Shown here piece by piece: positions 6,140-60,869 of a stretch of 64,000 bases of DNA. The notes beneath the pieces are model-generated. The model did not search any database, was not told the origin of the DNA, and saw nothing but the letters and a program-made list of their open reading frames with translations. Every line of letters begins with the position of its first letter. Within the stretch, counting starts at the first letter, position 1. The position numbers and the translations under genes were made by a program. This DNA is from Candidatus Nitrotoga sp. MKT (GTDB lineage Bacteria > Pseudomonadota > Gammaproteobacteria > Burkholderiales > Gallionellaceae). Where the stretch lies: positions 1-64,000 of the forward strand of contig QFXH01000005.1 of assembly GCA_003402345.1 (NCBI GenBank), given 5' to 3'.

Positions 6140-7330
<1,191 letters not shown>

Positions 7331-7520: not shown

Positions 7521-9923
7521 TTACTTGGCATAGAACGCAATTCGCTCCAGTATCATCGGCTTGCTCCCGGCTGCCTTCCAATTAAATCGGATACGTTTAA
7601 ATTCTGTATCGGCATACTGGCCCGTCAACGGCAGCATTAAACCAGCGCTGACTCGTTGCAGCCTGGACAACTCAGTGGTGGCGACCAAGGTGATCCATGC
7701 TCCATTCGACGTTTGTCCTTCCACCCCGACCTCCGTAACCGTTTCAGGTTCGGTAATTTTTATGACAATCGCTTGATAACTGGCTGGTTGAAAAGCGATG
7801 TCATCCGGTGATTCAAGTGAACTTTGTGCACCACGAACGGTGCTTAAGGTAAATTTTCCCGGAGCGATTTGACCCTGTGTATTTCCAGAAGGAAGCCAGC
7901 CGTCTCCATCCGCGTGCTCCCCTGCACCAAAAGTCCACAAGCGCGATCGGCGGGGCAGATTAGCGTGCGAGATCATAAACGTCTTTATCGCATCTTCCAA
8001 AGGCGTATCACGCAGAGCTGTATAAGAAATAAAGCCTGCTTGATCGGCAAATATGCCTCGGCTACCGTTCCATGCCATCGGTGAAATAAAGCGTGCACCA
8101 TAATTATGGATGTCCCTCAATGACCGGTAAGCCTCAGCAAAATTCGCTAGACGTTTCGGATTGCGTAAATCGGCAGTATTGTGTTCGACCACTGCCCAAT
8201 CAGAGTCGAGTTTGCGGAATACTGAAAACAACGAGCGAGATTCTTCCATCCTGACCTGATTGGCGGCACTTGATCCATAGAGAATTGCACCGAGATGTCC
8301 ATTGGATGGCATCGCCCCATCAACTGACATGCCGCCCATATCAGTGTTTTTCACGGGGCTGTTCAAATAGATAGGGAATGGCATACCGAGCGTATCCGGT
8401 GCCATGAAACCTTGAGCGGAATATATAAACTCCTTACCTATTCCGACTTCGCCAATCCATTGCGAAAGTTCATCGTAATGCAGTTTAACCAGATGACGGC
8501 GAAAGTGCTCCCACTCTGTTACCCATGCATCTTTCCAGAACGGATTAATATGCGTTGGAAATATTCGAGGTGGATCAACATCTTCCCAACGCTTGAACTG
8601 ACGTCCGCTCAACGCATTCACGTCATCCAGCGTTAGCGGCCTTTCTTTTTTGTAATGGGAAAGGTCAGGCCCGCCCGCAATGATTCGACCGGAGTATGGC
8701 CCACTTCCCTGCAACCATTCGCGAAACTGGCGCAAGGTACCGGGGTTATAGTCGTACCATTGCCGACCCTCAAAAAAAGGATTCAAGTACACATCTGGGT
8801 CAGTGGTTATGCCGATAAAAAGTGCCGGGTGTTGAGCCGCAAATTTACGGATGATGGACGCGGCATGCTGCAAATTACGTTTTTTGTAATGTCGATTTTT
8901 TGTAGCGTAAATGTTAAAGGCTAGGGAGCGGCCGAGTTCGGGTGAATCCATGGAACCGGAGAGATTCTTCAGATAATCATCCGCCATCACTTGATTTTTT
9001 TCATTCCACTGCAAATTGGCAACATCTTGTTCGAGCACGTCATTGATGTCCCATTCCGGTGCGTCGCACGCGGCATCGGCCCAAATTCCGCCATTCAGCG
9101 TGAACAATACAGGTAACTGGTGTTTGACCGCGTAATCGATAACGCCGTTCAGACTGTCTTCGGCGATCGTCCGCGTGCCACATTTGCGACTGGACGGGAA
9201 GTCGGCATCGAAAGCGTAATCGCTGGCCCTGCCTTTGGTTGTGCGCAAATAGAGAATGGGAACTCGAATGCCGACCTTAACGGTATCACTTTCGTAAGGC
9301 CGAAATATAGTATCAACATCCGTTGCGCCCCCGCTGGCAATATTGCTGGTGGCCATGATGAAATAGAACACGTCATCACGCTTCAACCCGCGTAACTTGA
9401 GAAGATCGGACCATGTCTGTTTGGCATTTAATGCCGGTAGCGTGCGCCGAGTGAGAACACTTTCTCCACCCTGTTTGTCAGTGACGACCAGTTCCAACGT
9501 TTGCAACTCAATAGGCCGGTTTGAAATGTCGACTTTACCTTCAAACCCTGCTTTACCCGAGTCCGGATAGCCTGGGAAGGTTTGAGCTACGTCCGCACGC
9601 GGCACGGCAATGGTAAGAGGTATTCTAAGCTTGCCGTTCAAAACCAACTCTACACGTGCAATACCCGCTTTACTCACAGCCCATCCGAGCACGGAAATTT
9701 TTCCGCCGTCAGTAGATTCTTCATTCAATTTGTCGACGAACCCTAAAATTGGCGTTGTTGCAGGATTCGTAGCGATTGCTGGGGTGTGAAGCCATTGTGG
9801 GCGGTATGCTTTTATCAATACGTAACTACCGCTACACAGCAATAGCACGAGAGTAAATAGCAGCAAAATTATCGATAGCCGCTTCGTGCTAAAGGAAGTT
9901 TTCATGTTCTGTTCAATACTCAT
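7521..9923 (-). CDS. Membrane-anchored glycoside-hydrolase-like protein of unknown function
   Basis: About 800 residues from the ATG at 9923 (alternative ATG at 9905; neither has a good ribosome-binding site, and the frame runs on to a TTG at 9971). One N-terminal membrane segment (about residues 16-38) predicts a signal-anchor with the body outside the cytoplasm. Residues ~75-160 look like a beta-sandwich (VLGWAVSKAGIARVELVLNG). The centre (~200-620) has the feel of a TIM-barrel polysaccharide enzyme, with TLRQFREWLQG and many aromatic and acidic residues. The C-terminal ~130 residues resemble a discoidin/carbohydrate-binding fold. I do not recognise a named family and cannot assign a catalytic pair. 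Convergent with cld; its upstream neighbour is a transposon remnant. Confidence 0.7.
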   Translation of the reverse strand: MSIEQNMKTSFSTKRLSIILLLFTLVLLLCSGSYVLIKAYRPQWLHTPAIATNPATTPILGFVDKLNEESTDGGKISVLGWAVSKAGIARVELVLNGKLRIPLTIAVPRADVAQTFPGYPDSGKAGFEGKVDISNRPIELQTLELVVTDKQGGESVLTRRTLPALNAKQTWSDLLKLRGLKRDDVFYFIMATSNIASGGATDVDTIFRPYESDTVKVGIRVPILYLRTTKGRASDYAFDADFPSSRKCGTRTIAEDSLNGVIDYAVKHQLPVLFTLNGGIWADAACDAPEWDINDVLEQDVANLQWNEKNQVMADDYLKNLSGSMDSPELGRSLAFNIYATKNRHYKKRNLQHAASIIRKFAAQHPALFIGITTDPDVYLNPFFEGRQWYDYNPGTLRQFREWLQGSGPYSGRIIAGGPDLSHYKKERPLTLDDVNALSGRQFKRWEDVDPPRIFPTHINPFWKDAWVTEWEHFRRHLVKLHYDELSQWIGEVGIGKEFIYSAQGFMAPDTLGMPFPIYLNSPVKNTDMGGMSVDGAMPSNGHLGAILYGSSAANQVRMEESRSLFSVFRKLDSDWAVVEHNTADLRNPKRLANFAEAYRSLRDIHNYGARFISPMAWNGSRGIFADQAGFISYTALRDTPLEDAIKTFMISHANLPRRSRLWTFGAGEHADGDGWLPSGNTQGQIAPGKFTLSTVRGAQSSLESPDDIAFQPASYQAIVIKITEPETVTEVGVEGQTSNGAWITLVATTELSRLQRVSAGLMLPLTGQYADTEFKRIRFNWKAAGSKPMILERIAFYAK

Positions 9924-10078
9924 AGAGATAATTAAAAATGTCCAATCGTTCGCTACAAAAAACGTATACAAAGTCGCTCATTGTCGTTGTGTAAACGTTC
10001 AGCAACAAGAGATAACAGATACCCTCATCGTATGCGACGTTCCTCGCTAGACGCCAATAGCTGGCACACGTCAATATT

Positions 10079-10252
10079 ATGGGGCAGGATGTTTCTGGTT
10101 ACGATGGTAATTGTGTATTGATAAGGGAAAACGATGTCAAGGGTATCGAGCTGGCTATTCGGGTAGTAGACAACTATTTGGCACGTTGGGGCTTTAAACC
10201 AAAAAAACCATTAAAAATATACGAGCAGTGTTTTAAAACCTTCCAGACTTAA
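10079..10252 (+). pseudogene. IS630-family transposase remnant fused to a ghost gene leader
   Basis: A 57-codon frame. Its C-terminal half (GIELAIRVVDNYLARWGF, KPKKPLKIYEQ) resembles the DNA-binding domain of IS630-type transposases, whose usual form is YLKRWGFTPQKP..RAYEQ. The DDE catalytic domain is missing and the frame stops at 10252. The first part (10086-10140) is instead similar to the leader and start codon of the gene at 12069, so the frame is a chimera, not an intact gene. No terminal inverted repeats were identified. Confidence 0.6.
10086..10140 (+). repeat. Degenerate copy of the 12022-12077 gene leader
   Basis: Reading 10086-10140 against 12022-12077 gives shared blocks GTTTCTGGTT, ATTGATAAGGGAAAA and GATGTCAAG, with one small gap. 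The shared part includes the ribosome-binding site and the start codon of the downstream propeller gene. In this copy the frame from that ATG closes after ten codons. It looks like the remains of a duplicated gene start. Confidence 0.65.
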
Positions 10253-10335: not shown

Positions 10336-11880
10336 ATGGATAAAATTTATGAATCGAGCGATGGCGCGATGAAAGTACTTGTAATCTTAGGACATCCACG
10401 TAGCCCCAGCCTATGTTCCGCACTTGCAAACGCCTATGAAAATGGCGCGTTAGCGGCTGGTATGGAAATTGAGAAGATAGATTTGGGGGCGATAGACTTC
10501 GACCTTGACGTACACCCGGTCTCGCCTCGGGATCAACCTTTGGAACCTGATTTGGAACGCGCTTTACAACTCATCAAGTGGGCAGATCATATAACTGTTA
10601 TCTATCCTGCCTGGTGGGGAGTAGGGCCAGCTCGACTTAAAGGATTTCTCGACCGAATACTGTTGCCGGGATTTACTTTCAGAGAGCGTGACGACGGCCA
10701 CTTCGAGGGACTGCTGACCGGCAAGACAGCTCATCTCATCACCACGTTAGATATGCCAGCTTGGGTATATCGATTCATCTACCGCGCCCCGGGTCACAAT
10801 GCCATGAAGCGATCCGCGCTAGGCTTTTGTGGAATCACTACTACGCGTATTCTTGCACTGGGCCCAGTAAAGGACTCCGAGCCGGTTCAGCGGGCCCAAT
10901 GGTTGGAGCAAGCTCGGGGGCTTGGTTTTTCCCTAAGAAATGGTGCCTCAAGCCATATCGATCGTGTTACCACTAAGCTAAAAGCTTGGCTCAAGGCGTT
11001 GCGGCTCCAATTTTATCCTATGACCTGGATGGCCTATACGGTAGGCGCATTGGGAGCGGCCGCGGCGAGTGGAGACTGGAACCTATCGGTCTACTGGCTG
11101 GGATATGCCTGCCTGTTTTTCCTGGAAGCAGCCACGGTATTTACCAATGATTGGTTCGACTATGAAAGTGACCGGTGCAACCGTCATTTCGGCCCCTTTA
11201 CGGGCGGCTCTCGGGTACTTGTGGATAAAAATCTAAGTTTCAGTGAACTACGTGTAGGCATCGTGATGTCATTGATGGCCGCTGCGGCTTGTACCGGCTT
11301 GCTCATGGATTATCTTGCAGGCAATAGTGCTGTACCTATCGTTATACTCATAATGACAGTGTTAGGGCTGGGTTATACGGCGCCTCCCCTGAAGCTTGCC
11401 TGGCGTGGGTTGGGGGAACTCAATGTGGCTGCCACCCACAGCTTTGGCGTAATACTGTGCGGCTATATATTCCAGGGTGGAGAATGGAACAACCCCTTTC
11501 CTTGGCTCATTAGCCTGCCGCTGCTCCTGGCGGTAATGCCGGCTATCATCCTCTCGGCTATCCCGGACTTCGAGGCAGATAAACAAGCTGGCAAGCGCAC
11601 CTTGGCGGTACGCTTGGGATTAGGCCGGGCAACGCTACTAGCTCTAGCACTGGCTGCGGCGGCACCCTTGGCCGTGATATTCATCAAGGATCAGCCAGCT
11701 TTGCGCGGTAGCTTCCAAGGATTGCTACCGTGGGTGCTTCCCCATGTTTGTCTGCTCGGATTTCTGATTTACCGTGCCTGGAGACAACAACGGCTATGCG
11801 GCCGCATTGATGGGCTGATGGTGGCATCGCTAACCTATATCATTTGGTTTGGATGGATTCCCTTGTTGCATTTAAAATGA
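10336..11880 (+). CDS. Fusion of NAD(P)H:quinone oxidoreductase (flavodoxin fold) and UbiA-family prenyltransferase
   Basis: Residues 12-200 are an NQO1/MdaB-like flavodoxin-fold domain: VLVILGHPRSPS at the N-terminus (FMN/FAD phosphate site) and YPAWWGVGPARLKGFLDR at 90-107. Residues ~225-514 are a polytopic UbiA-type prenyltransferase with both aspartate motifs intact, NDWFDYESD (271-279) and DFEADKQAGKR (411-421), plus PFTGGSRVL as in MenA-like members. Such enzymes attach isoprenoid chains to quinone-type rings in the membrane. The fusion suggests reduction and prenylation, or redox control, of the same aromatic substrate, but the substrate is unknown. Start at 10336 is uncertain; ATG 10369 is an alternative. 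It stands alone between a transposon remnant and a propeller protein gene. Confidence 0.85.
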   Translation: MDKIYESSDGAMKVLVILGHPRSPSLCSALANAYENGALAAGMEIEKIDLGAIDFDLDVHPVSPRDQPLEPDLERALQLIKWADHITVIYPAWWGVGPARLKGFLDRILLPGFTFRERDDGHFEGLLTGKTAHLITTLDMPAWVYRFIYRAPGHNAMKRSALGFCGITTTRILALGPVKDSEPVQRAQWLEQARGLGFSLRNGASSHIDRVTTKLKAWLKALRLQFYPMTWMAYTVGALGAAAASGDWNLSVYWLGYACLFFLEAATVFTNDWFDYESDRCNRHFGPFTGGSRVLVDKNLSFSELRVGIVMSLMAAAACTGLLMDYLAGNSAVPIVILIMTVLGLGYTAPPLKLAWRGLGELNVAATHSFGVILCGYIFQGGEWNNPFPWLISLPLLLAVMPAIILSAIPDFEADKQAGKRTLAVRLGLGRATLLALALAAAAPLAVIFIKDQPALRGSFQGLLPWVLPHVCLLGFLIYRAWRQQRLCGRIDGLMVASLTYIIWFGWIPLLHLK

Positions 11881-12021: not shown

Positions 12022-12077
12022 AGGACGTTTCTGGTTTCGACTGTGTGCATATTGATAAGGGAAAAAAGATGTCAAGC
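12022..12077 (+). promoter_or_regulatory. Leader with ribosome-binding site of the propeller gene
   Basis: Contains AAGGGAA 6 bases before ATG 12069 and is the better-preserved copy of the duplicated segment at 10086-10140. The ribosome-binding site decides the start in favour of ATG 12069 over ATG 12045. Confidence 0.6.
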
Positions 12078-15000
12078 TTACTGAAGGTATCAGGGACGGT
12101 GGCAACTAAAAAAATATTCGCGATACTTTTTGTGCTCATCGCATTACATGTCACGATGTTTAAAACGCACGCAGCGCCGGCACTCGACAGTTCGTTTGGC
12201 AACAGTGGCATCGTGCGCATCGGGGTACCCTCCGGCGCGGAAGATACGCCCTCCGCGTCCGTTCTGCAGCGCGACGGCAAATTGCTGCTGGCCGGTGGGA
12301 CGGCGAGGCGGCCATCGCACGCATTTGTTCTCCGACTACTTCCGAACGGTGTTCCTGATACCACGTTCGGCCAGAATGGCGTTGCCCTGTTTAATCTGCC
12401 CAATGGAGACCATTACGCGATCCAACAACTCGAGCAGGGTGCCGATGGATCCATACTGATAAATGGATCTAACGGGAACGGCCTTGTACTGACCCGGCTC
12501 ACGGCGACCGGCATTCTCGACACCAGCTTTGGCACGCAAGGTTTCTTCAGTGTGAGAGGAGCCCCGGCGAGCTTCGTGCAACAGCCGGACGGCGGTCTGC
12601 TGATCGTCTCGGATGCTACGCAAGGGTCGCAATTTGCATTACGACTCACACGCCTTAACCCAGCCGGCGTCCTTGATTCGACCTATGCACCGAATGGCGA
12701 AAAAATACTTAGTGGCCTGCCTTCGTATTTTGAGATGGCCCCGGGCGTTTCAGTTGTCGCTGAGCCGAATGGCGGGTTTACAGTTATGGCAAAAACGACC
12801 ATTAGCGGCAGCAGTAGCACTTATCTACTTGTTCGCTTGACGGCCGCTGGCACGCTCAATTTTGGCTTTGGAGACGGTGGTTTTGTCAGGGGGTACGCCG
12901 TTGACAATCACTTCGATCGCCCAGTCACGATGGTGCGCACCGCTAATGGCGGATTGCTTCTGATGGGCGATTCAGTGACCCTCCCGTCCTATCCCTTCGA
13001 TGCTACATATGCGAACAGTAAGGTTGTATTGTGGCGAGTCACTGCCGACGGCTTAGCCGATGCGTCTCTCGGTACTGCCGGTCGACTTGAGCTCGGCAGC
13101 ATCGACTCCTACATCTACAGCTACAGCCTCCGCTTCGATTTTAAATTAGCAGCGCTGAGTGATGGCAGTATCGCATTGGTCAACGCCGTCGACGCCACCA
13201 CTGCGCGTGTGAGTCACTTCGATGCCAGCGGAGTCCTGGATAGTGCTTTTGGCGCTGCCGGCAGCTCGACGATTGCACTTGTCGGCTATAGTACGCTCTC
13301 CGCCATAAGCATCCTGCCAAATGGCGTAGGCGGCTTGTTGATACCGGCAGTGGCCGGACTGACCTTGGAATGTAGCCCCCTCAGCGATTGCGTTCCTCGC
13401 GGCGTGGATGCTGCCGTCGCAAGCCTCAATGGCAGCGGTCATCTCCAAACCAGCTATGGCCGCGGCGATGGCTTCGCTGTCGTGAACACTGCCGAATACA
13501 GCAACGACAAGGTTGACGCGATACTGGTTGAAACTTCGGGCAAAGTTGTACTTGCAGGTAGTTCAGATGTAGACGCGACCTTTGATTATTTTCTTGAACG
13601 CCTGACGGCAAATGGTTCCCCCGATATTGCATTCGGGACGAACGGGCGCGTGGCACCGGGGAAAAACACGCGCTTCATGGGCAAGGCGCGTGTAGCTGAA
13701 CAAGCAAGCGGTGCGATAACGGTCGTGGCTGGAACCGGGAGCGGGTCTATTCTCCCATTCGGCACCATTACAGCGTTTCAACTTGACGCAGCCGGAATGC
13801 TCAACGCCGGATTCGCCCCCAGTCTTGCAGCACCATCGTGGTCGAATACGGATATTGCGTTGGGCATTCGTCCAGATGGGCGCTTGCTTTACGGAACGAC
13901 AACGGGTGGAAGTGCTATTTTGCAGCAGACAATGTCGGATGGCACACCTGACCTGAGTTTCAGCACAGACGGTAAAACCGAATTCCCGTTGCCTGCCGGA
14001 GAGAATTCATTCTATGCGGACATGGCTTTACTTGGCGACGGTTCTGTAGTCTTTGCTGTGCAAACGGAATATAACCTACATCTCTATAAGGTCGATTCGC
14101 ATGGGTTGCCGGTAGCTTCGTTTGGGACGGTCGGTCAGTTTACCTATGCTTCTACCGATCCATTTTCCTTTGGCGGAGCACCATTCTCCTTGCTCTCACT
14201 GAGCGATGGCTCCCTGCTGGCTGGCATTGGTATTAACCAATACGCACCATCTTCTAATTCGTTTAGCGGATCGCTGCTCGCGATTCGGGTTTCCAGCAAT
14301 GGCATGCTGCTCGGAGCGAACAATTTGTTGGCGGGTCAGGGTGAATTCACTTGGAACTTTGCTGCACTGCCCGACGCCAGCGTGGTGGTAGCACGTAGCT
14401 ATAGCAATGGACAAACGAAATCGACAGCGCTATATCGCCTGCTTCCGAATAACAGTTTTGATATGAGTTTTGGCATCAATGGGGCGTATTCGCTACCCGG
14501 CATGTTTAGTGTTGATGCGCTGGCGCTCGATGCCCATTCCCGTTTGCTCGTTGCGGGACAGGATGCAACGAGTGCCGTTCTGGCTCGCTATGAGCTGAAC
14601 GGAACGATCGCTAGCACACCTATCGTTGAGTTTTACAACACCCATCTGGATCATTATTTCATCACCGCCGACGCCAATGAAGCTGCGGGCATTGATGGAG
14701 GGAGCGCGGGGCCCGGCTGGATTCGCACCGGAAATAGTTTCAAGTCGGGCGGCAGTACGCCCGTTTGCCGGTTCTACGGTAGCCAGGTTCCTGGCCCCAA
14801 TTCGCATTTCTATACTGTAGCAGGCGCTGAATGTGATGGCCTTAAGCAGCTTCAGGCCATTACACCCTCCACGCAGAAGCGCTGGAATTTTGAAAGCCTG
14901 GATTTTATTTCAACTCCGCCAACCAATGGCACATGTCCGACCGGTACAACGCCGGTCTATCGAGCCTATAACAATGGGTTTGCCCGCGGTGTCGACAGCA

Positions 15001-15092
15001 ACCATCGTTTTTCTAGTGATGCGGCAGCCATCCAGGAAGTCGTCGCGCGCGGCTGGATCAATGAGGGTGTGGCTATGTGCGCTCCGATTTGA
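12069..15092 (+). CDS. Secreted delta-60-repeat beta-propeller protein with C-terminal DUF5648-type module
   Basis: 1007 residues. A signal peptide (about 1-35, hydrophobic IFAILFVLIALHV, ending THA) predicts export. Residues ~36-845 carry about 13-14 divergent delta-60 (DUF5122) units, each with a core such as LDSSFGNSGI, PDTTFGQNGV, LDTSFGTQGF and PDIAFGTNGR; this number would suit two seven-bladed propellers. From ~850 to the end is a 157-residue module (VEFYNTHLDHYFITA, GWIRTGNSFKSGG, CRFYG, HFYT, KRWNFESLDF, ending VAMCAPI) of the DUF5648 type. The same module ends the protein encoded at 57398-59152. Ligand and role are unknown; an extracellular binding or adhesion role is inference. Confidence 0.85.
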   Translation: MSSLLKVSGTVATKKIFAILFVLIALHVTMFKTHAAPALDSSFGNSGIVRIGVPSGAEDTPSASVLQRDGKLLLAGGTARRPSHAFVLRLLPNGVPDTTFGQNGVALFNLPNGDHYAIQQLEQGADGSILINGSNGNGLVLTRLTATGILDTSFGTQGFFSVRGAPASFVQQPDGGLLIVSDATQGSQFALRLTRLNPAGVLDSTYAPNGEKILSGLPSYFEMAPGVSVVAEPNGGFTVMAKTTISGSSSTYLLVRLTAAGTLNFGFGDGGFVRGYAVDNHFDRPVTMVRTANGGLLLMGDSVTLPSYPFDATYANSKVVLWRVTADGLADASLGTAGRLELGSIDSYIYSYSLRFDFKLAALSDGSIALVNAVDATTARVSHFDASGVLDSAFGAAGSSTIALVGYSTLSAISILPNGVGGLLIPAVAGLTLECSPLSDCVPRGVDAAVASLNGSGHLQTSYGRGDGFAVVNTAEYSNDKVDAILVETSGKVVLAGSSDVDATFDYFLERLTANGSPDIAFGTNGRVAPGKNTRFMGKARVAEQASGAITVVAGTGSGSILPFGTITAFQLDAAGMLNAGFAPSLAAPSWSNTDIALGIRPDGRLLYGTTTGGSAILQQTMSDGTPDLSFSTDGKTEFPLPAGENSFYADMALLGDGSVVFAVQTEYNLHLYKVDSHGLPVASFGTVGQFTYASTDPFSFGGAPFSLLSLSDGSLLAGIGINQYAPSSNSFSGSLLAIRVSSNGMLLGANNLLAGQGEFTWNFAALPDASVVVARSYSNGQTKSTALYRLLPNNSFDMSFGINGAYSLPGMFSVDALALDAHSRLLVAGQDATSAVLARYELNGTIASTPIVEFYNTHLDHYFITADANEAAGIDGGSAGPGWIRTGNSFKSGGSTPVCRFYGSQVPGPNSHFYTVAGAECDGLKQLQAITPSTQKRWNFESLDFISTPPTNGTCPTGTTPVYRAYNNGFARGVDSNHRFSSDAAAIQEVVARGWINEGVAMCAPI

Positions 15093-15112
15093 TTTGACCT
15101 AAAGTTTTGGTC
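14617..15112 (+). repeat. DUF5648-type module, copy 1 (nucleotide-level match to copy 2)
   Basis: The DNA encoding the C-terminal module and about 15 bases past the stop is closely similar to the complement of 57388-57880. Near the end, the stretch GATTTGATTTGACCTA covering the stop codon is identical in both. Similarity reaching into non-coding sequence argues for recent duplication or gene conversion, not only selection on the protein. Confidence 0.8.
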
Positions 15113-15280: not shown

Positions 15281-16372
15281 TTAGACGTTGAAGCGGAAGT
15301 GCATCACATCGCCATCTTGTACCAAATAATCCTTGCCTTCCAACCGCATCTTTCCTTTTTCTTTTGCGCCCGCCTCACCCTTGCAAGCGACGAAATCCTC
15401 ATAACTGATCACTTCGGCGCGAATAAAGCCATGCTCGAAATCATTATGAATGACGCCCGCTGCCTGCGGTGCGGTATCGCCTATGTGTATCGTCCAGGCG
15501 CGCACTTCTTTCACTCCAGCGGTAAAGTAGGTTTGCAAGCCCAACAGCTTGTAGGCCACGCGAATCAGCCGATTTAGACCGGGCTCTTCCAAACCAATGT
15601 CGGCCAGGAATTCTTTTTTATCTTCATCTGAAAGCTCTGAAATTTCTGACTCCAGCGCTGCACAAATTGCCACTACCGGCGCGCCTTCACGTGCGGCGAA
15701 TTCTTCCAGCCGCGCCAATAATGGATTATCTTTGAAACCATCTTCAGCCACGTTAGCCACGTACATGGCAGGTTTAATCGTGAGCAGGCACAGCGGCTTA
15801 AGCGAGGCGATCTGTGCCGCGTCCAGCTTCATCATGCGCGCAGGTTTGCCTTGGTTTAAATGTGCGGCAACCTGATCCAGCAATTCACCGAACTTAGCGG
15901 CTTCTTTGTCGCCGGAGCGAGCAGCCTTGGAGTTACGCAATTGGGCTTTTTCTACCGTTGTCATATCCGCCAGCGCCAGTTCCGTTACGATCGTTTCAAT
16001 ATCTGAAATTGGATCGACCTTGCCCGCTACGTGAATGACGTTGTCGTCCTCGAAACAGCGCACCACATTTAAAATACCATCGGTCTCACGAATGTTGGCG
16101 AGGAATTGGTTGCCCAAGCCTTCGCCCTTGGATGCCCCAGCCACCAACCCGGCGATGTCTACAAACTCTGTGATGGCATATTGCATTTTCTGCGGCTTGA
16201 CGATATCGGCCAGCGCCTGCATCCGCGCATCCGGAACTTCCACAATGCCGACATTGGGCTCAATGGTGCAGAACGGATAGTTCTCCGCCGCTATACCGGC
16301 CTTGGTAAGTGCATTGAACAGGGTGGACTTGCCTACATTGGGCAGACCGACGATTCCGCATTTCAGGCTCAT
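15281..16372 (-). CDS. ychF: Redox-regulated ATPase YchF (Obg-like GTPase family)
   Basis: Cytosolic P-loop NTPase of the Obg superfamily that prefers ATP and associates with ribosomes. The 363-residue protein shows the P-loop [12 protein letters not shown] (8-19), the switch/G3 stretch [17 protein letters not shown], the YchF-specific coiled-coil insertion in the middle, and the C-terminal TGS domain ([13 protein letters not shown]). Sixteen bases separate it from the upstream pth, a conserved pth-ychF pairing, so the two are probably cotranscribed. Confidence 0.97.
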
Positions 16373-52241: not shown

Positions 52242-54755
52242 ATGCGCGGCCTGACGCATGCCGAAGCACGTGGGCGACTGCAAGCTGAAGGTGTGAATGA
52301 ATTGCCCGCAGCCAGGAGCCGCGACATCCCGGCGATTGTACTGGAAGTAGTGCGCGAACCAATGTTTTTGCTGTTGTTGGTGGCTGGAGTGATTTATCTG
52401 TTGTTGGGCGATGTCAGCGATGCGCTGATGTTGTTGGGCTTTGTGTGCATGGTGATGGGGATCACCATTTATCAGGAACGCAAGACGGAACGGGTGTTGG
52501 AGGCATTGCGCGACATCAGCAGCCCACGCGCGCTCGTGGTGCGTGAAGGTATCGCGCAACGCATCGCCGGACGTGACGTGGTGCGCGGCGATATCCTGAT
52601 TCTGGCCGAAGGTGACCGGGTGCCGGCGGACGCGGCGCTGATTTCCTGCAATGATTTTGCGACGGATGAATCAATGCTCACTGGCGAATCGTTGCCGGTA
52701 CGCAAGATCGGCCAACCTGATGCCCATAAGCTGCATCCGCCCGGCGGCGATGATTTGCCGTTTGTATATTCCGGTACGCTGGTGGTGCAAGGACGCGGCA
52801 CCGCGCGCGTGCTGGCGACCGGACCGTACACCGAACTCGGCAAGATTGGCAAGGCATTGCAAGTCTTGGATAACGAAACCACGCCGTTACAAAAAGAGAT
52901 CAACAGGCTGGTGCGCAACCTCGCCATTGTCGGCACCCTGCTAAGCTTGCTATTGGTAATGGTCTATGGCTTGAGCCGTGATGATTGGCTGCACGGGTTT
53001 CTGGCTGGCATCACGCTGGCGATGTCGATTTTGCCGGAGGAGTATCCATTTGTGTTGATCGTGTTCATGGCGATGGGGGCATGGCGCATTTCGCGCCATC
53101 AGGTGTTGACCCGCCGCATGCCTACGGTGGAAACGCTGGGTTCGGCCACTGTGCTGTGTGTAGACAAGACCGGCACACTTACGCTCAATCAAATGACAGT
53201 ACAGCAATTAATTGCTGGCGATGCATCGTTCGTAGTGGCTGCATCGCACGCTCCACTACCCGAGACATTTCATGAGTTGGTCGAATTCAGCATTTTGGCG
53301 AGCAAAACCGATCCCTTTGACCCAATGGAAAAAGCCATCCACACGCTCGGCGAATATTATCTGACCGACACAGAACATCTGCACCATGATTGGTCGCTGG
53401 TACATGAGTATTCATTGTCACCGGAACTACTCGCACTCTCGCACGTATGGCGGGCAAGCGACCGCAATGAATACGTAGTGGCAACCAAAGGCGCGCCGGA
53501 AGCAGTGGCCGATTTGTGCCATCTGGATGAGCATCAATTATCTAAACTTTCTACCCAAGTAAATATACTCGCTGCACAAGGTATGCGCGTATTGGGAGTA
53601 GCCAAGGCCAGTTATCGCGGCCGTGAATGGCCAAGCATTCAACATGACTTCAAATTCGAGTTTATCGGCCTGGTCGGATTGGCTGATCCAGTCCGCCCTA
53701 CCGTTGCAGCGGCGCTCAAGGAGTGCACTGCGGCAGGCATCCGAGTGGTGATGATTACCGGCGATTATCCCGCTACCGCTGCCGCAATTGCCCAACAGAT
53801 CTGCTTGCCCGGTGGACGCGACAACATTATTAGTGGTATGGAACTTAATCAAATGGATGATGCAACATTGCGCGAACGCATCCGCCACAACAATATTTTC
53901 GCGCGTATGGTACCGGAGCAAAAACTGCGACTGGTGAACGCGCTCAAGGCAAACGGCGATATAGTGGCGATGACCGGCGACGGGGTAAATGACGCCCCCG
54001 CGTTAAAAGCGGCGCACATCGGCATCGCCATGGGTGGGCGTGGCACCGATGTGGCGCGCGAAGCGGCCGCACTGGTATTGCTGGATGATGATTTTGCCTC
54101 AATCGTGCGCGCCGTGCGTATCGGGCGCAGTATCTTCGATAACCTGCGCAAAGCGATGGCTTATATTCTTGCGGTACACATACCCATCGCCGGTTTGTCA
54201 CTTATCCCCCTGTTATTGGGCTGGCCAACGGTATTCGCTCCGGTCCATATCGTGTTTTTGGAAATGATCATCAACCCGGCCTGCTCGATTGCCTTCGAAG
54301 CGGAACCAGCAGAGCGCAATGTCATGCGGCGTCCGCCGCGCAGCCCGCAAGAGCCGCTGTTCGGAAGACAGGTCATCCTGCTCAGCCTGTTACAGGGTAC
54401 GTTGCTGTTGCTAACCACACTTGTAGTACTGGGCTATGCGTTGCACCAGGGCGCAGCGGAAGAGGAGGCCCGTGCACTGGCTTTTTCCACGCTAGTCATC
54501 GGTAATATTGGACTGATTTTGGTCAACCGTTCCTGGCAACTTAACATCTTCAGTTCGCTCAAAAACCGCAATTCTGCACTGTGGTGGGTAGTAGGCGGTG
54601 CATTTTCCTTCCTTCTGCTGACCCTGTATTTACCCTTGTTACGTGAAATATTTCACTTCGCGCCTCTCACGCCCTATCAACTCGCGTTGAGTTTTGCTGC
54701 CGGTCTGTGCAGCGTGCTCTGGTTCGAATTGCTCAAGCTCGTTCGGCGGCACTAA
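52242..54755 (+). CDS. Cation-transporting P-type ATPase (P2-like)
   Basis: Product of 837 residues from ATG 52242 (MRGLTHAEARGRL); GTG 52212 is a possible earlier start. Visible are the actuator TGES motif (DESMLTGESLPV), membrane helix 4 with ILPEEYPF, the phosphorylation site DKTGTLTLNQ, the KGAPEAV nucleotide site, and TGDGVNDAPALKAAHIGIAMG. The PEEYP helix-4 motif points to a Ca2+/Mn2+-type or related subgroup, but ion selectivity cannot be decided here. There are about ten membrane segments. comEC begins 7 bases after the stop. Confidence 0.92.
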   Translation: MRGLTHAEARGRLQAEGVNELPAARSRDIPAIVLEVVREPMFLLLLVAGVIYLLLGDVSDALMLLGFVCMVMGITIYQERKTERVLEALRDISSPRALVVREGIAQRIAGRDVVRGDILILAEGDRVPADAALISCNDFATDESMLTGESLPVRKIGQPDAHKLHPPGGDDLPFVYSGTLVVQGRGTARVLATGPYTELGKIGKALQVLDNETTPLQKEINRLVRNLAIVGTLLSLLLVMVYGLSRDDWLHGFLAGITLAMSILPEEYPFVLIVFMAMGAWRISRHQVLTRRMPTVETLGSATVLCVDKTGTLTLNQMTVQQLIAGDASFVVAASHAPLPETFHELVEFSILASKTDPFDPMEKAIHTLGEYYLTDTEHLHHDWSLVHEYSLSPELLALSHVWRASDRNEYVVATKGAPEAVADLCHLDEHQLSKLSTQVNILAAQGMRVLGVAKASYRGREWPSIQHDFKFEFIGLVGLADPVRPTVAAALKECTAAGIRVVMITGDYPATAAAIAQQICLPGGRDNIISGMELNQMDDATLRERIRHNNIFARMVPEQKLRLVNALKANGDIVAMTGDGVNDAPALKAAHIGIAMGGRGTDVAREAAALVLLDDDFASIVRAVRIGRSIFDNLRKAMAYILAVHIPIAGLSLIPLLLGWPTVFAPVHIVFLEMIINPACSIAFEAEPAERNVMRRPPRSPQEPLFGRQVILLSLLQGTLLLLTTLVVLGYALHQGAAEEEARALAFSTLVIGNIGLILVNRSWQLNIFSSLKNRNSALWWVVGGAFSFLLLTLYLPLLREIFHFAPLTPYQLALSFAAGLCSVLWFELLKLVRRH

Positions 54756-54762
54756 AAAAGCC

Positions 54763-57237
54763 ATGCGCTATGCCGTTTTATTTTTTGCATTGGGCGTATG
54801 GTTGCTGCAACAACAGGCCGTGCTTCCCAACCCCGTTTGGAGTGGGTTGACCTTATTGTTTGCTATTGCTTGGATGCTATCGCGTAACACTCTTGTGCAG
54901 CGTAAAGTATCCCCTGTTCTTCTTGCGGCTTTTGCCTGTACCTTTGGTTTTTTCTACGCTGCATTTTTTGCGCAGCAACGTTTGTCCGATGCTCTGCCTG
55001 CCGAATGGCAGGGCAAAGATATTCAAGTCATCGGTGTGGTGGGAAAGCTTCCCATACAGCATGAACGCGGACTTCGTTTTGTCTTCGATGTGGAGCAGGT
55101 GCTCACCCCCAATGCCATTGTTCCGCCACATATCTTGCTTGCCAGTTACGACGGTGCACGGGAAGAGCCTCTCGACATCCATGCCGGTGAACGCTGGCGA
55201 TTCACAGTACGCTTGAAGCAACCGCACGGCAGCAGCAATCCCCACGATTTTGATTTTGAAGCATGGATGCTGGAAAATAAGTTGCGCGCCAACGGCTATA
55301 TTCGTCGAGCACAAGATAACTCACGACTGGATGCGTTAGTGAAATCACCTGATTACTATATCCAGAGCCTACGCGAAAAAGTACGCGACCACATCCAGAA
55401 AACGCTAAACCCCCTTGCCAATCAGCTTCATCCTTTACAAATTTCACCCGCCGCAAGCGGGAAAAAAATTTTCGATAGCGCTGAGATGAGTGTCGTCGAA
55501 AAAAATAATTACATCGGCGTGTTAACCGCACTTGCTATCGGTGACCAGGCCGGCATCCCAGCGGCGCAGTGGCAGGTTTTTACGCGAACTGGAGTCAATC
55601 ATTTGATGAGTATTTCAGGCTTGCACATCACCATGCTGTCAGGGCTGGCGTTTGCCGCAAGCTATTGGTTATGGCGGCGCAGTGCGCGCCTCACGCGCGC
55701 GCTACCGGCACGCAAAGTTGCTGCGCTCATCGGTTTGCTGGTGGCACTCGGTTATGCGCTACTGGCAGGCTACGGTGTACCGGCGCAACGTACGGTGTAT
55801 ATGCTGGCGACGATCGCTACCGTATTGTGGCTCTCACGCACTGTCGCACCGTCGCAAATTCTTGCGGCCGCCTTGCTCGTTGTATTGTTACTCGACCCAT
55901 GGGCGGTGCTGTCGCCGGGATTTTGGCTCTCTTTCGGCGCGGTGGCATTGATTTTTTATGTGACCGCGCATCGGTTGCGCCCTCCGCACTGGTTAGTAAC
56001 CTATGGCCGCGTTCAATGGGCAATGAGCATCGGGCTGATTCCGCCGCTGTTGGCGATGTTCCAGCAAGTTTCATTGGTGTCGCCCATCGCCAATGTTTTT
56101 GCCATTCCGTTGGTCAGCTTCGTGGTGGTGCCGCTCACCCTCCTGGGCACTGTACTTCCCTTCGATTGGCCGCTGTGGCTGGCGCATCAGGCCATGGGAG
56201 TGTGCGGCAACCTGCTGAAGTGGCTGAATGACCTGCCAGAGGTGGTATGGACACAGCACGCCCCGCCCACATGGAGCATAGCTATCGGCATGTTTGGTGT
56301 GCTATGGATGCTATTGCCGCGCGGATTCCCCGCGCGCTGGCTGGGACTGATCGCCCTGCTACCGATGTTTTTAGTACTGCCTGCAGTACCGCCAGAAGGT
56401 TCACTACGCTTGGTAATTTTCGATGTCGGGCAAGGCTTGGCGGTCGCCGCGCAGACACACGACCACGCACTGCTCTATGATGCCGGCCCTAATTTTAATA
56501 GCGAGGCCAACAGTGGCAACCGCATCCTCATCCCGGCGCTGCGGGGCATGGGCATCGCGCGACTCGACGGCCTGATTCTTAGCCATGATGACAACGATCA
56601 TACCGGCGGCGCATTATCTATTTTGCAAGGGTTGCCGGTAGGTTGGCTCTCATCTTCGCTGGCAACAAATCATCCCCTATTGCAACATGCTTCGAACACC
56701 CAGCGCTGCATGGATGGGCAAACTTGGGAATGGGACGGCGTGCACTTTGAAGTGCTACACCCGACAGCGGAAAGTTATGCGGAAGAAAAAATCCGCGACA
56801 ATAATCGCAGCTGTGTATTGAAAATCAGCACGGGCAAAAACAGCGTGTTGCTTGCCGCCGACATTGAAAAAGATTCCGAATGGCGGTTACTGAAACAACA
56901 TGAGGAAGAGCTCCCCGCCACGATTTTAGTGGTGCCACACCACGGCAGCAAGACCTCGTCAGTGAATGCCTTCGTAGCGGCCGTGCAACCACGCTATGCT
57001 GTATTCACCGTGGGTTACCGCAATCGCTTTGGCCATCCCAAGGAAGAAATTGTCGAGCGTTATCGCGCAATGGGCAGCGAACTATTGCGCTCCGACAAGG
57101 ACGGTGCAATTGTGGTGGAAATGGATACGCAGAATGTTAGCGTGGAACGATATCGCAAAAGCCACGCACGTTATTGGCAACAAGCAATTGATGATGCACC
57201 TTTAAATGAAAAAGATTTGGCATCGAGCGCTTGGTAA
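54763..57237 (+). CDS. comEC: DNA internalisation-related competence protein ComEC/Rec2
   Basis: Channel for transformed DNA. Started at MRYAVLFF the product has 824 residues. Order: N-terminal membrane pair, an OB/DUF4131-type soluble domain (~30-170), the competence domain with ~8 membrane segments (GVNHLMSISGLHITMLSG), and the C-terminal metallo-beta-lactamase-like nuclease domain (DVGQGLAV, LSHDDNDHTGGAL, VPHHGSKTSS). All parts are present, so the protein looks functional. The ATPase gene before it is coupled by position only. Confidence 0.93.
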   Translation: MRYAVLFFALGVWLLQQQAVLPNPVWSGLTLLFAIAWMLSRNTLVQRKVSPVLLAAFACTFGFFYAAFFAQQRLSDALPAEWQGKDIQVIGVVGKLPIQHERGLRFVFDVEQVLTPNAIVPPHILLASYDGAREEPLDIHAGERWRFTVRLKQPHGSSNPHDFDFEAWMLENKLRANGYIRRAQDNSRLDALVKSPDYYIQSLREKVRDHIQKTLNPLANQLHPLQISPAASGKKIFDSAEMSVVEKNNYIGVLTALAIGDQAGIPAAQWQVFTRTGVNHLMSISGLHITMLSGLAFAASYWLWRRSARLTRALPARKVAALIGLLVALGYALLAGYGVPAQRTVYMLATIATVLWLSRTVAPSQILAAALLVVLLLDPWAVLSPGFWLSFGAVALIFYVTAHRLRPPHWLVTYGRVQWAMSIGLIPPLLAMFQQVSLVSPIANVFAIPLVSFVVVPLTLLGTVLPFDWPLWLAHQAMGVCGNLLKWLNDLPEVVWTQHAPPTWSIAIGMFGVLWMLLPRGFPARWLGLIALLPMFLVLPAVPPEGSLRLVIFDVGQGLAVAAQTHDHALLYDAGPNFNSEANSGNRILIPALRGMGIARLDGLILSHDDNDHTGGALSILQGLPVGWLSSSLATNHPLLQHASNTQRCMDGQTWEWDGVHFEVLHPTAESYAEEKIRDNNRSCVLKISTGKNSVLLAADIEKDSEWRLLKQHEEELPATILVVPHHGSKTSSVNAFVAAVQPRYAVFTVGYRNRFGHPKEEIVERYRAMGSELLRSDKDGAIVVEMDTQNVSVERYRKSHARYWQQAIDDAPLNEKDLASSAW

Positions 57238-57293
57238 AAGAATGGTGTTGTTTACAAAAAAATATCAATGGGATTAGACTTAATAGATAAATC

Positions 57294-57367
57294 GAGTCTG
57301 ACCCTGAGGTCTCACTGAGGTCTCCTCTGCGCTGCAATTTTGAGGGGAGACCTCAGAGTCAGACCCC
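57294..57367. repeat. Nested palindromic repeat (REP-like)
   Basis: GAGTCTGACCCTGAGGTCTC on the left and GAGACCTCAGAGTCAGACCC on the right pair as a long imperfect hairpin. Inside lie further copies of the GAGGTCTC/GAGACCTC unit. Sequences with a GGGTCTGACTC core resemble elements found around REP-associated (Y1) transposases; that link is from memory. It lies between convergent comEC and the propeller gene, where it may also act as a terminator. Confidence 0.7.
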
Positions 57368-57387
57368 ATTCATTGATTCCTCTAACT

Positions 57388-57880
57388 CTAGGTCAAATCA
57401 AATCGGAGCGCACATGACTATACCTTCATCGATCCAGCCGCGCGCGACGACTTCCTGAATAGCTGCTGTAGCACTGGAAATGCGATGATTGCTGTCGACA
57501 CCGCGGGCAAACCCGTTGTTATAGGCCCGGTAGACCGGTGCTGTCCCGGTCGGACATATACCATTGATCGGTGGAGTCGAAATAAAATCCAGGCTTTCGA
57601 AATTCCAGCGCTTCTGCGTGGCTGGCGTGGTAGCCTGAAGCTGCTTAAGGCCATTACATTCAGAAGTCGATGATGTGTAGAAATGCGAATTGGGGCCAGG
57701 GATCTGGCTACCATAGAAGCGGCAAACGGCCGTACTGCCGCCCGACTTGAAGCTATTTCCGGTTCGTATCCAGCCTGGCCCTGCGCTACCTCCGTCGATG
57801 CCCGCAGCCTCACCGGCGTTGGCGGTAATGAAATAATGATCCAGGTTGGTGTTATAGAACTCAACGACGGGCAGACTGGC
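57388..57880 (-). repeat. DUF5648-type module, copy 2
   Basis: The complement of this stretch is closely similar to 14617-15112, including the bases around and just past the stop codon. See the propeller genes for the protein comparison. Confidence 0.8.
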
Positions 57881-59152
57881 GAATGCCCCGTTTGCACCTA
57901 TCCGCTGGGCATAGATGTCCTGATTTGTACCGCTGCGAAAATCCTGCCAGGTGATAATCGCCCCGCCGCTGCCGTCGCTTATTATGGTTTGATTAAATTG
58001 GTCATTTGCATCCGTGGATATCGCGACTCCGTCTGCGCCCCATTGCACCACCCCGCTCGAGCTTATCCGCTGGGCATAGATGTCCTGATTTGTGCCGCTG
58101 CGAAAATCCCACCAGGTGATAATCGCCCCGCCGCTGCCGTCGCTTGTTATGTCTGGACTAAATTGGTCATTTGCGGCCTTGGATATCCCGACTCCGTTTG
58201 CGGTCCATTGCACCACTCCGCTCGCGTCTAGCCGCTGGGCATAGATGTCAGAGCCACCTCGCAAATCCCACCAGGTGATGATTGCCCCGCCGCTGCCGTC
58301 GCTTATTATGGTTGGATTTAATTGATAACTTACGTCCGTGAATATCGGGACTCCGTTTGCGAGCCATTGCACCACTCCGCTCGCGTTTATCCGCTGGACA
58401 TAGATGTCCTTATATGTACCGCTGCGAAAATCCTGCCAGATGATAATCGCCCCACCGCTGCCGTCACTTATTAGGGTTGGATCAGATTGGTGATTTGCGG
58501 CCGTGGATATCGCGATTCCGTCTGCGGCCCATTGCACCACCCCGCTCGCGTTTATCCGCTGGGCATAGATGTCAGTACTGCCGATGCGAGGACCAGTAAA
58601 GGGGATAGGGCCAAAGTTACGACTATCCTGCCAGGTGATAATCGCCCCGCCGCTGCCGTCGCTTGTTAGGGTTGGATTTACTTGGTCTTCTGCGGCCGTG
58701 GATATCGCGACTCCGTCTGCGGTCCATTGCGCCACTCCGCTCGCGTTTATCCGCTGGGCATAGATGTCCCAACTTGCGCCGCTGCGACTATCCTGCCAGG
58801 TGATAATCGCCCCGCCGCTGCCGTCGCTTATTAGGGTTGGATTATAACTTCCGTTCGTGGATATCTTGACTCCGTCTGCGGTCCATTGCACCACTCCGCT
58901 CGCGTTTATCCGCTGGGCATAGATGTCATTAGTGCCGCTGCGAGCATCCTGCCAGGTGATAATCGCCCCGCCGCTGCCGTCGCTTATTATGATTGGATAA
59001 GATTGGTAATTTGCGGCCGTGGATATCGCATTGTTGACCGCCGGGTTGGTTGACCAGGCGGCAACGGCATTGCCGGACAACAGGCCGGCAAACAGAACAA
59101 CAAGCGGTGCAATAAAACAGGACATCCGAGGTACTGCGCTAAAATTTTCCAT
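57398..59152 (-). CDS. Secreted seven-repeat beta-propeller protein with C-terminal DUF5648-type module
   Basis: 584 residues from ATG 59152 (AGGGAG 5 bases upstream). A signal peptide (~1-31, IAPLVVLFAGLLSG, ending AVA) predicts export. Residues ~40-420 are seven units of ~50-65 residues, each with SDGSGGAIITWQD, DIYAQRINASGVVQW and a DG(V/I)xIST end: a likely seven-bladed propeller. The third unit has an extra ~14 residues (NFGPIPFTGPRIGS). From ~427 the 158-residue C-terminal module is nearly the same as that of the 12069 gene (EFYNTNLDHYFITA, GWIRTGNSFKSGGS, ending IVMCAPI). Role and ligand unknown. Confidence 0.87.
   Translation of the reverse strand: MENFSAVPRMSCFIAPLVVLFAGLLSGNAVAAWSTNPAVNNAISTAANYQSYPIIISDGSGGAIITWQDARSGTNDIYAQRINASGVVQWTADGVKISTNGSYNPTLISDGSGGAIITWQDSRSGASWDIYAQRINASGVAQWTADGVAISTAAEDQVNPTLTSDGSGGAIITWQDSRNFGPIPFTGPRIGSTDIYAQRINASGVVQWAADGIAISTAANHQSDPTLISDGSGGAIIIWQDFRSGTYKDIYVQRINASGVVQWLANGVPIFTDVSYQLNPTIISDGSGGAIITWWDLRGGSDIYAQRLDASGVVQWTANGVGISKAANDQFSPDITSDGSGGAIITWWDFRSGTNQDIYAQRISSSGVVQWGADGVAISTDANDQFNQTIISDGSGGAIITWQDFRSGTNQDIYAQRIGANGAFASLPVVEFYNTNLDHYFITANAGEAAGIDGGSAGPGWIRTGNSFKSGGSTAVCRFYGSQIPGPNSHFYTSSTSECNGLKQLQATTPATQKRWNFESLDFISTPPINGICPTGTAPVYRAYNNGFARGVDSNHRISSATAAIQEVVARGWIDEGIVMCAPI
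57890..59040 (-). repeat. Seven tandem DNA repeats coding for propeller blades
   Basis: Units of about 155-165 bases (one near 197) repeat the core GCCCCGCCGCTGCCGTCGCT at about 57959, 58127, 58285, 58447, 58644, 58810 and 58967, with only scattered substitutions. The DNA-level likeness indicates recent unit amplification, and makes the locus prone to changes in repeat number. Confidence 0.85.
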
Positions 59153-59603
59153 AGTGCTCCCTTTTTGTAGATATTTTTGTTCACTTCGTTTCTGAGCCAA
59201 AAAGCAAAACCCGCATGTCCTTAAAATGGATGCACACGCTTATCTGCTTAGGAAGTAAGAGTAGGAATTTCAAACACAGAAGTTAAAGTATCCATGAGCC
59301 ACCGCTCTCCTGTCAATGAGATAGGCTGGAGGAAATAGACACCTCCGTTTTGTGAAACTTAAAACGGTACATTATCAGGTCCGCGTCCGTAACCAATCAC
59401 CCCTGTCAGGAAACGTAGCATTGATCTCTTGATGAAGCGACGGTTGGCGTTCTCGTCATGACGGGGAGATCATCGGTCCCTGCTGTCATTTTGGGGCAGA
59501 ATTTTGAATGATCATTTCTGGCTACCATTCGACATTTTCCTGCGTGGGCGGTAGCATCGCGCTCCATTTTTTATCGGTTCGGTTTCATACCTCTCTCCTG
59601 ACC
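59153..59603. other. Intergenic region between the propeller gene and the Hsp70-like gene
   Basis: No supportable gene. It must hold two divergent promoters. A 36-codon stop-to-stop stretch on the minus strand (59359-59469) reads like part of a protein but cannot be assigned. Confidence 0.5.
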
Positions 59604-60869
59604 ATGTTTGTTGAAACTCCCGCCCGCGCCTGCGGCATCGATTTCGGTACGTCCAACTCCACCGTAGGCTGGTTGCGTCCTGGCCAGCCTAGCCTGCTGG
59701 CACTGGAAAACGGCAAGCCCATTCTGCCCTCCGTAGTTTTTTTCAATGCCGAAGAAAACACCGTAAGCTTCGGCCAAGCAGGTCTCAAGGAATATCTGGA
59801 TGGCTACGAAGGCCGCTTGATGCGCGCCTTGAAGAGCCTCCTCGGCAGCAGCTTGATGGAAGGCAAAACCGAAATCCAGGGCCGCTCGCTGCCCTACAAG
59901 GAATTACTGACCCAATTCATCACCGAACTCAAGCACCGCGCCGAAACGGCGGCGGATCGCTCTTTCGACCAAGCCGTGTTTGGTCGGCCAGTGTTTTTTG
60001 TGGATGACGATACGGCGGCCGACGATAAAGCTGAGGTGACGCTGGAAGCCATCGCCCGCACCGCCGGCTTCCGTGAGGTGAGCTTTCAGTACGAGCCCAT
60101 CGCCGCAGCCTATCACTACGAACGCCAGATTAACCACGAGGAATTGGTGCTGATCGCCGACATCGGCGGCGGCACCTCCGATTTCTCCCTGATCCGGCTC
60201 TCGCCGCAACGTGCACTGGCAGCCGACAGGCGCGACGATCTGTTGGCCAATAGCGGCGTGCACATCGGCGGCACCAACTTTGACCGACAATTGAGCCTGG
60301 AAGGCGTGATGCCCCTGCTGGGCTATGGCAGCCTGCTCAAGCGCGGCCTGACCATGCCCTCCAGCTACTACATGAATCTTGCCACTTGGCACACCATCAA
60401 CCAGGCCTATACCAGCCGCACCTGGGCCGATCTGCAGGAGCTGTACTTGGACACCCAAGCGCCTGAAGCCATGGACCGTCTGCTCAAGCTGATCCGCGAC
60501 CGCGCCGGCCATTGGTTGGCCGTGCAGGTGGAAGAAGCCAAGATCGTCCTGTCCACCGGCAATAGCGCAGCCCTACATTTGGATAGACTCGCACCCGGCA
60601 TGCGCCACACGCTGACCCGCATTGAGTTTGAAAAAGCGTCGGCAGAGCTGGTAGAACAAATCGGCAATACTCTGGGCACTTTGCTGGCAAAGGCTGGCGT
60701 GCGTAGCGAGGCGGTAGATACGATATTTTTCACCGGCGGTGCCAGCGGCGTGCCCATGCTGCGCGAACGCATTGCCGCAATTTTACCTACGGCCCGGCGT
60801 ATGGAAGGCGACTTGTACGGTAGCGTTGGCGCCGGTCTTGCGGTAGAGGCAAAACGGCGCTTCGGCTGA
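59604..60869 (+). CDS. Hsp70-family protein, YegD-like
   Basis: 421 residues from MFVETPARA, with no substrate-binding domain of the DnaK kind after the ATPase core. Actin-fold motifs: GIDFGTSNSTVG (11-22), VLIADIGGGTSDFSLI, and FFTGGASGVPMLRE near the end; FQYEPIAAAYHYE is the connector. It matches the YegD group of truncated Hsp70-like ATPases, whose client is unknown. Monocistronic; the frame upstream of ATG 59604 is not supported. G+C is higher than that of its neighbours. Confidence 0.92.
   Translation: MFVETPARACGIDFGTSNSTVGWLRPGQPSLLALENGKPILPSVVFFNAEENTVSFGQAGLKEYLDGYEGRLMRALKSLLGSSLMEGKTEIQGRSLPYKELLTQFITELKHRAETAADRSFDQAVFGRPVFFVDDDTAADDKAEVTLEAIARTAGFREVSFQYEPIAAAYHYERQINHEELVLIADIGGGTSDFSLIRLSPQRALAADRRDDLLANSGVHIGGTNFDRQLSLEGVMPLLGYGSLLKRGLTMPSSYYMNLATWHTINQAYTSRTWADLQELYLDTQAPEAMDRLLKLIRDRAGHWLAVQVEEAKIVLSTGNSAALHLDRLAPGMRHTLTRIEFEKASAELVEQIGNTLGTLLAKAGVRSEAVDTIFFTGGASGVPMLRERIAAILPTARRMEGDLYGSVGAGLAVEAKRRFG

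Follow-up and report, generated by a model that had tools for sequence, protein, structure and literature searches.

Comparison of silent sites and of phylogenies indicates that the DUF5648 module at the end of delta-60 repeat proteins of Candidatus Nitrotoga is homogenised within genomes by gene conversion, and that the N-terminal part of the same proteins is hardly homogenised at all. The module was analysed at two loci of one window, a stretch of 64,000 nucleotides from Candidatus Nitrotoga sp. MKT (contig QFXH01000005.1, C5 below), in which a delta-60 gene and a gene with different repeats end in the same module. For these two loci the comparisons point to one old DNA-level joining of the module to the second gene. 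An exchangeable tether module, an old joining and conversion among delta-60 paralogues together form the best explanation, which we consider likely as a whole; the evolutionary history, taken separately, is held with high confidence.

When the window was compared with itself by blastn, positions 14623-15106 matched the complement of 57384-57867 with 85.95% identity over 484 bp (E=5.8e-162), and a chance origin of this match is negligible. The match stopped 14 nt past the stop codon in both genes (the stops end at 15092 and 57398), in agreement with the original prediction of paired modules whose DNA match continues past the stop. The two modules had also been called nearly identical. Both genes do end in the same module of about 157 aa, but a protein identity of 86% over 157 aa makes this wording too strong. 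The N-terminal parts had been assigned to different repeat families, and they were found in separate BLASTP clusters, with delta-60 repeats in the first gene only. In several genomes, the bases just 5' of the module and about 14 nt after the stop were alike in both protein types, which indicates that the module moved as DNA. The shared 3' flank was absent from the delta-60 copy on contig C10 of the same genome.

Features of the two module-bearing loci and their neighbours in the window
Feature	Positions	Strand	Basis or occurrence
Flavodoxin/FMN-reductase and UbiA gene, upstream neighbour of first locus	10336..11880	+	Adjacent to a delta-60 gene in five further genomes
Probably secreted delta-60 repeat protein with C-terminal DUF5648, 1007 aa	12069..15092	+	Pfam/NCBIfam profiles
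Putative signal peptide, residues 1-36	12069..12176	+	By eye and home-made rule
DUF5648 module, 157 aa, three predicted beta-beta-alpha-beta units	14619..15089	+	Pfam; AlphaFold2 pLDDT 92.3
Tract identical to C10 delta-60 paralogue, 329 bp (putative gene-conversion tract)	14637..14965	+	DNA comparison
3' flank common to the first and the 57-kb gene; similar in other Nitrotoga delta-60 genes	15093..15106	+	DNA comparison
YchF GTPase gene, downstream neighbour of first locus	15281..16372	-	Adjacent to a delta-60 gene in eight further genomes
ComEC-like competence gene, neighbour of second locus	54694..57237	+	JAIOPT and HW29; absent from the compared stretch of G008
3' flank also shared by the 14.6-kb gene and the HW29, JAIOPT and G008 counterparts	57384..57397	-	DNA comparison
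Probably secreted repeat protein with C-terminal DUF5648, 584 aa	57398..59152	-	Pfam; AlphaFold2
DUF5648 module of second protein	57401..57871	-	Pfam
Tandem array of 159-165-nt units; probable beta-propeller with seven blades	57899..59029	-	Repeats; AlphaFold2; Foldseek
HSP70-like gene, neighbour of second locus	59508..60869	+	In JAIOPT, HW29 and G008

Both window modules belonged to Pfam DUF5648 (PF18885), with scores of 50.7 and 46.0 bits against the curated cut-off of 25. The AlphaFold2 model of the module, calculated from 46 sequences, reached a pLDDT of 92.3 and displayed the elements E-E-H-E, E-E-H-E and E-H-E-H-E; its three beta-beta-alpha-beta units were recognised from the order of these elements. 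DUF5648 is predicted to be a small three-bladed beta-alpha propeller. Over 46 diverse modules, 30 alignment columns were invariant, including four cysteines. No solved relative of the module was detected by sequence search or Foldseek.

The N-terminal part of the first gene matched TIGR02608 (E=1e-49; 166.1 bits, cut-off 76.5) and PF17164 (DUF5122; E=3e-23). It is therefore a member of the delta-60 repeat proteins, but one that carries DUF5648. The repeats of the second gene had no Pfam or NCBIfam match over the cut-off, and none to the delta-60 families. In its AlphaFold2 model, built from an alignment of 3 sequences, residues 50-418 were arranged as seven groups, each of 3-4 strands; the overall pLDDT was 60.9 (local values mostly 65-89, and 41-60 in places). 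Foldseek returned matches with a probability of 1.00 and E-values to 1e-8, which we take to be propellers (peptidases, lectins and glycosidases), but no TM-score exceeded 0.40 by query or 0.58 by target. Because these scores are modest, the seven-bladed propeller is a probable, not a settled, reading of the model. The 3' flank of this gene contains an inverted repeat at 57282-57378. The flank has 12 matches in the genome including itself, and several of these are incomplete copies close to the ends of contigs, as would be seen for a dispersed repeat.

A search of the MKT genome (2.7 Mb, 23 contigs) for further copies of the module, as had been proposed, detected seven DUF5648 copies. The copy closest to that at 14.6 kb was located on contig C10 (98% DNA identity, compared with 86% to the 57-kb copy). 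In a Pfam search of 61 genomes, DUF5648 was identified in 14 of 19 genomes of the genus (MKT included), in none of 18 from the rest of the family and in two of 24 from the rest of the order; two of 14 well-known control genomes also encoded it. Among the matches listed in a scan of named genomes, DUF5648 was also present in assemblies labelled Gallionella, Sulfuricellaceae, Lysobacterales and others.

The N-terminal parts of the carriers fell into 30 BLASTP clusters; clustering was by single linkage, and cluster 0 contains protease-like proteins together with RCC1 and InlB-like repeat proteins. Among 22 scanned carriers, delta-60, RCC1, Kelch and NHL repeats, cyclophilin, subtilase, M23 peptidase, multihaem cytochrome, InlB-like repeats, BACON and a marginal PAF-acetylhydrolase were named by Pfam above the cut-off, and a trypsin-like match was found below it. 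A constant module joined to variable N-terminal parts, as the original prediction had it, is therefore borne out by DUF5648 on unrelated partners. By a home-made rule, a signal-peptide-like start was present in 76 of 83 carriers, compared with eight of 39 control ORFs. The position of the module was determined for 91 modules (seven partial matches among 98 were left out): 81 ended at most 15 residues from the protein end, one protein was merely longer, and nine modules were followed by 78-652 residues. Three carriers may be of interest for extracellular electron transfer: DUF5648 was attached to a multihaem cytochrome (L114:3279-5486), a cytochrome-like protein with a match below the cut-off (L107:4092-5480) and a cyclophilin (L119:4248-5471), in assemblies labelled Gallionella and Sulfuricellaceae.

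Judging from its carriers, DUF5648 is probably an interchangeable, mostly C-terminal attachment on exported proteins. According to the accessible part of one paper, its fold has been described and linked to proteins that target O-antigen, glycan binding has been suggested for the family, and the domain is present in Bacteroidales lipoproteins (PMC12853789). The accessible parts of two others place DUF5648 in GH70 enzymes (PMC11299179) and in one enterococcal prophage endolysin (PMC13379245). The module may thus bind a surface or extracellular glycan and would thereby keep the N-terminal part of each exported carrier on the cell surface or within the matrix; we regard such glycan binding as equally likely to prove right or wrong. 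One common ligand for all MKT modules is not suggested, because their pairwise protein identity falls to 42% and modules this unlike need not share a ligand. It is conceivable, though rather improbable, that the modules act as an adjustable surface attachment which recognises the strain's own glycan, with conversion spreading changes among paralogues, so that the exported proteins would keep matching a changing glycan coat.

Alternatively, the module could be a signal for export or sorting that a secretion system, for example type II, recognises, and not a glycan-binding domain. The mostly C-terminal position and the unrelated, probably exported partners would fit such a signal, as would the gene for the type II secretin GspD in the MKT genome. 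On the other hand, the module is predicted to be a compact folded domain, and the nine internal modules mentioned above do not stand at the protein end. GH70 enzymes, prophage endolysins and Bacteroidales lipoproteins exit the cell by other routes. Since DUF5648 is also reported from these three groups in the accessible text of the papers, we consider a sorting signal unlikely, though still worth weighing.

The delta-60 gene of the window and its paralogue on C10 were about 83% identical in their N-terminal part. They were identical over 329 bp within the module and differed again between 14965 and the gene end. None of 10000 shuffles of the 566 differing columns (of 3090) reached a run of this length, the longest being 77. 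At silent sites, these two genes were 80.6% identical in the N-terminal part and 90.1% in the module.

The same pattern was found in the three genomes of the set with at least two delta-60 copies. Delta-60 modules from the same genome showed 90.4% silent identity (10 pairs: one in MKT, six in strain 1052 and three in strain BS) compared with 73.9% between genomes (126 pairs). This excess gave p=5e-5 in 20000 label shuffles, a value which serves as a guide only since the copies are related. For the N-terminal parts, the corresponding values were 77.9% and 75.4%. Silent identity of the module exceeded that of the N-terminal part in all 10 same-genome pairs (+0.8 to +26.5, with one pair at only +0.8), compared with 55 of the 126 between-genome pairs, where the mean difference was -1.5. 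Calculated per analysis window along the genes, the excess was largest in the two module windows (+17.3 and +15.7), and three N-terminal windows were also in excess (+9.6, n=5; +8.9, n=4; +6.7, n=10).

The N-terminal part of the C5 copy was nearest to the syntenic gene of genome G008 (88.9% silent identity), with the module at 73.0% to the same gene. When the strain BS copy located beside YchF was compared with its G007 counterpart, the values were 87.6% for the N-terminal part and 59.7% for the module. N-terminal trees rejected same-genome clades for MKT (p=2.5e-5), BS (p=5e-31) and 1052 (p=0.02). In the module trees, the MKT copies formed a clade with support 100/100 and the BS copies one with 99/96. 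The best module tree did not unite the four 1052 modules, but a clade of the four was not rejected either (AU p=0.26); the silent-site excess was present in 1052 as well. The comparison of strains for swapped N-terminal parts that had been suggested thus revealed crossed relationships in the C5/G008 and BS/G007 comparisons, together with conflicting N-terminal and module trees. These results indicate that delta-60 modules of one genome overwrite one another by gene conversion and that the N-terminal parts do not. The high DNA identity of the modules would favour homologous recombination there over the diverged N-terminal parts, and so would keep the modules alike. The recombination step is supported by these sequence comparisons.

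The tandem copies in BS and 1052 would also be expected if the delta-60 paralogues were recent whole-gene duplicates with fast-changing N-terminal parts. The N-terminal parts differ at silent sites, however, and not in protein alone; moreover, the C5 copy and one BS copy have N-terminal parts that cluster with the positional counterpart from a different genome. Recent whole-gene duplication is therefore ruled out by the silent sites and by the N-terminal trees that reject same-genome clades, and we give it very little weight. Protein-level constraint alone, with no DNA exchange, is very unlikely as well. Constraint on the module is real, as the invariant columns indicate, but it is ruled out as the sole cause by silent sites homogenised within genomes mainly in the module, by a tract without any difference, and by a shared flank that is untranslated. 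That the identical tract is an assembly artefact of a draft genome in 23 contigs is extremely unlikely, since it lies inside contigs of 202 and 83 kb with differing flanks and a comparable pattern occurs in two other genomes.

For the two window loci, 21 modules were compared, comprising 17 delta-60 copies from 11 genomes and four of the second type. Not included among the 17 were L092, L093, L099 and L111, which belong to other lineages (L092 and L093 were used as tree outgroups only), L102, a divergent copy from Ca. N. fabula, and two fragments, one in L094 and one in L150, whose 3' ends are similar; the delta-60 copies L081_2356 and L083_2333 were truncated where their loci begin. At 4-fold sites, the two types were 72.7% identical within one genome (n=4) and 77.1% identical across genomes (n=64). 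The second-type modules of all four genomes formed a single clade (100/99) that lay within or next to the delta-60 modules. The 57-kb module was 94% identical to that of G008, 91.5% to HW29 and 90.9% to JAIOPT, compared with 85.4% to the 14.6-kb copy of MKT.

The original prediction had proposed module shuffling or gene conversion between these two loci and had taken comparable similarity across genomes as an argument against recent exchange. In MKT, family members do undergo conversion, as the C5 and C10 delta-60 genes demonstrate, but a recent event between this pair is not supported. A swap of the module between the two loci by recent conversion in this strain would explain 86% DNA identity through the stop codon. 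However, silent identity is no higher within genomes than between them, a clade of the three MKT copies was rejected (AU p=2.35e-5), and the 57-kb module is nearer to its HW29, JAIOPT and G008 counterparts than to the 14.6-kb copy. Recent exchange is thus ruled out for the module as a whole, although a short converted patch might be too small for these comparisons to resolve, and we see scarcely any chance that it accounts for the likeness of this pair.

The conserved neighbourhood is in agreement with this result. At other delta-60 genes, YchF was found in eight loci and the UbiA-flavodoxin gene in five. Because both window loci keep their neighbours in other genomes, the arrangement predates the split of the strains. 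The second-type clade, the absence of raised identity within genomes, the conserved neighbours and the shared flank together point to one old joining. In an ancestor of these Nitrotoga strains, a delta-60-type module with linker bases and about 14 nt of 3' flank was most likely joined to a different repeat-protein gene by DNA-level recombination, after which the two loci evolved separately.

Within-genome likeness across unrelated carriers was mixed in the seven genomes compared, out of 18 with at least two modules. At silent sites, pairs on different carriers were more alike within the genome in four of them (nzgw563, C21, CAMCFJ and palsa) and less alike in three (MKT, 1052 and JAIOPT). In nzgw563, the modules on an RCC1, a cytochrome-like and a hydrolase-like carrier (the last assigned by eye) showed about 92% DNA and 82-90% silent identity to their best partner, compared with 54-75% to the best match in another genome. 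For six of the 11 modules of nzgw563, the best DNA match was in another genome. This likeness, compared without syntenic counterparts, may reflect duplication or conversion. Four loci of Gallionella sp. nzgw563 with unrelated carriers (L093, L096, L107 and L110) displayed 89-92% DNA and 77-90% silent identity to their best partner, above other-genome matches.

The nearest described case is from Helicobacter pylori. According to the accessible part of the paper, homA/homB and babA/babB paralogues of the same strain cluster in the 3' but not in the 5' segment, which is attributed to intragenomic gene conversion (PMC2795765). As in that system, paralogues of one genome (MKT and BS) cluster in one segment only. 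In H. pylori the segment lies within one outer-membrane protein family, whereas here it is a separate domain that also occurs on unrelated proteins, in a free-living bacterium. Nitrotoga DUF5648 is thus a new case of a known 3'-segment concerted evolution with a known domain. The accessible text of the papers found places DUF5648 in antibacterial proteins of Bacteroidales, endolysins of enterococcal prophages and GH70 enzymes, whereas in the nitrite-oxidising Nitrotoga and its relatives a genome carries several copies, attached to unrelated proteins that are probably exported.

C-terminal sorting domains include the T9SS CTD and PEP-CTERM. By description, these resemble DUF5648 as a constant C-terminal part on diverse exported proteins, but here the part is a folded domain of 157 aa which is sometimes internal. 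In the open-licence literature, no paper on Nitrotoga with DUF5648 or PF18885 was found by title and none on a Nitrotoga gene family with a propeller; the sole match for Nitrotoga with gene conversion concerns Campylobacteria, and delta-60 was absent among the matches listed for Nitrotoga genomes. The case adds an exchangeable domain whose history can be separated from that of its carriers at silent sites, and a bacterium other than the pathogen with the described case. If the module binds glycans, DUF5648 would gain a testable role, and the module would illustrate how bacteria that oxidise nitrite or iron retain a variety of exported proteins, cytochromes included, at the cell surface.

Several smaller observations were made upstream of the first locus. 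The single ORF at 10336-11880 encodes a flavodoxin/FMN-reductase domain fused to a UbiA prenyltransferase domain and has DNA matches in five other Nitrotoga loci. Positions 9811-10138 are a 74% copy of the sequence upstream of the C10 delta-60 gene (C10:15299-15638), and the last approximately 52 bp of this copy recur at 12022-12073, just before the window delta-60 gene. The ORF at 7521-9971 (816 aa) had no Pfam match at E<=0.001 and showed DNA matches in several delta-60-bearing Nitrotoga loci. Because this gene directly precedes a delta-60 gene in strains 1052 (L082) and M5 (L084), a delta-60 copy may have been lost at this place in MKT. Finally, two 86-bp copies with 95% identity are located at 137-222 and 6327-6412, with short inverted parts recognised by eye.
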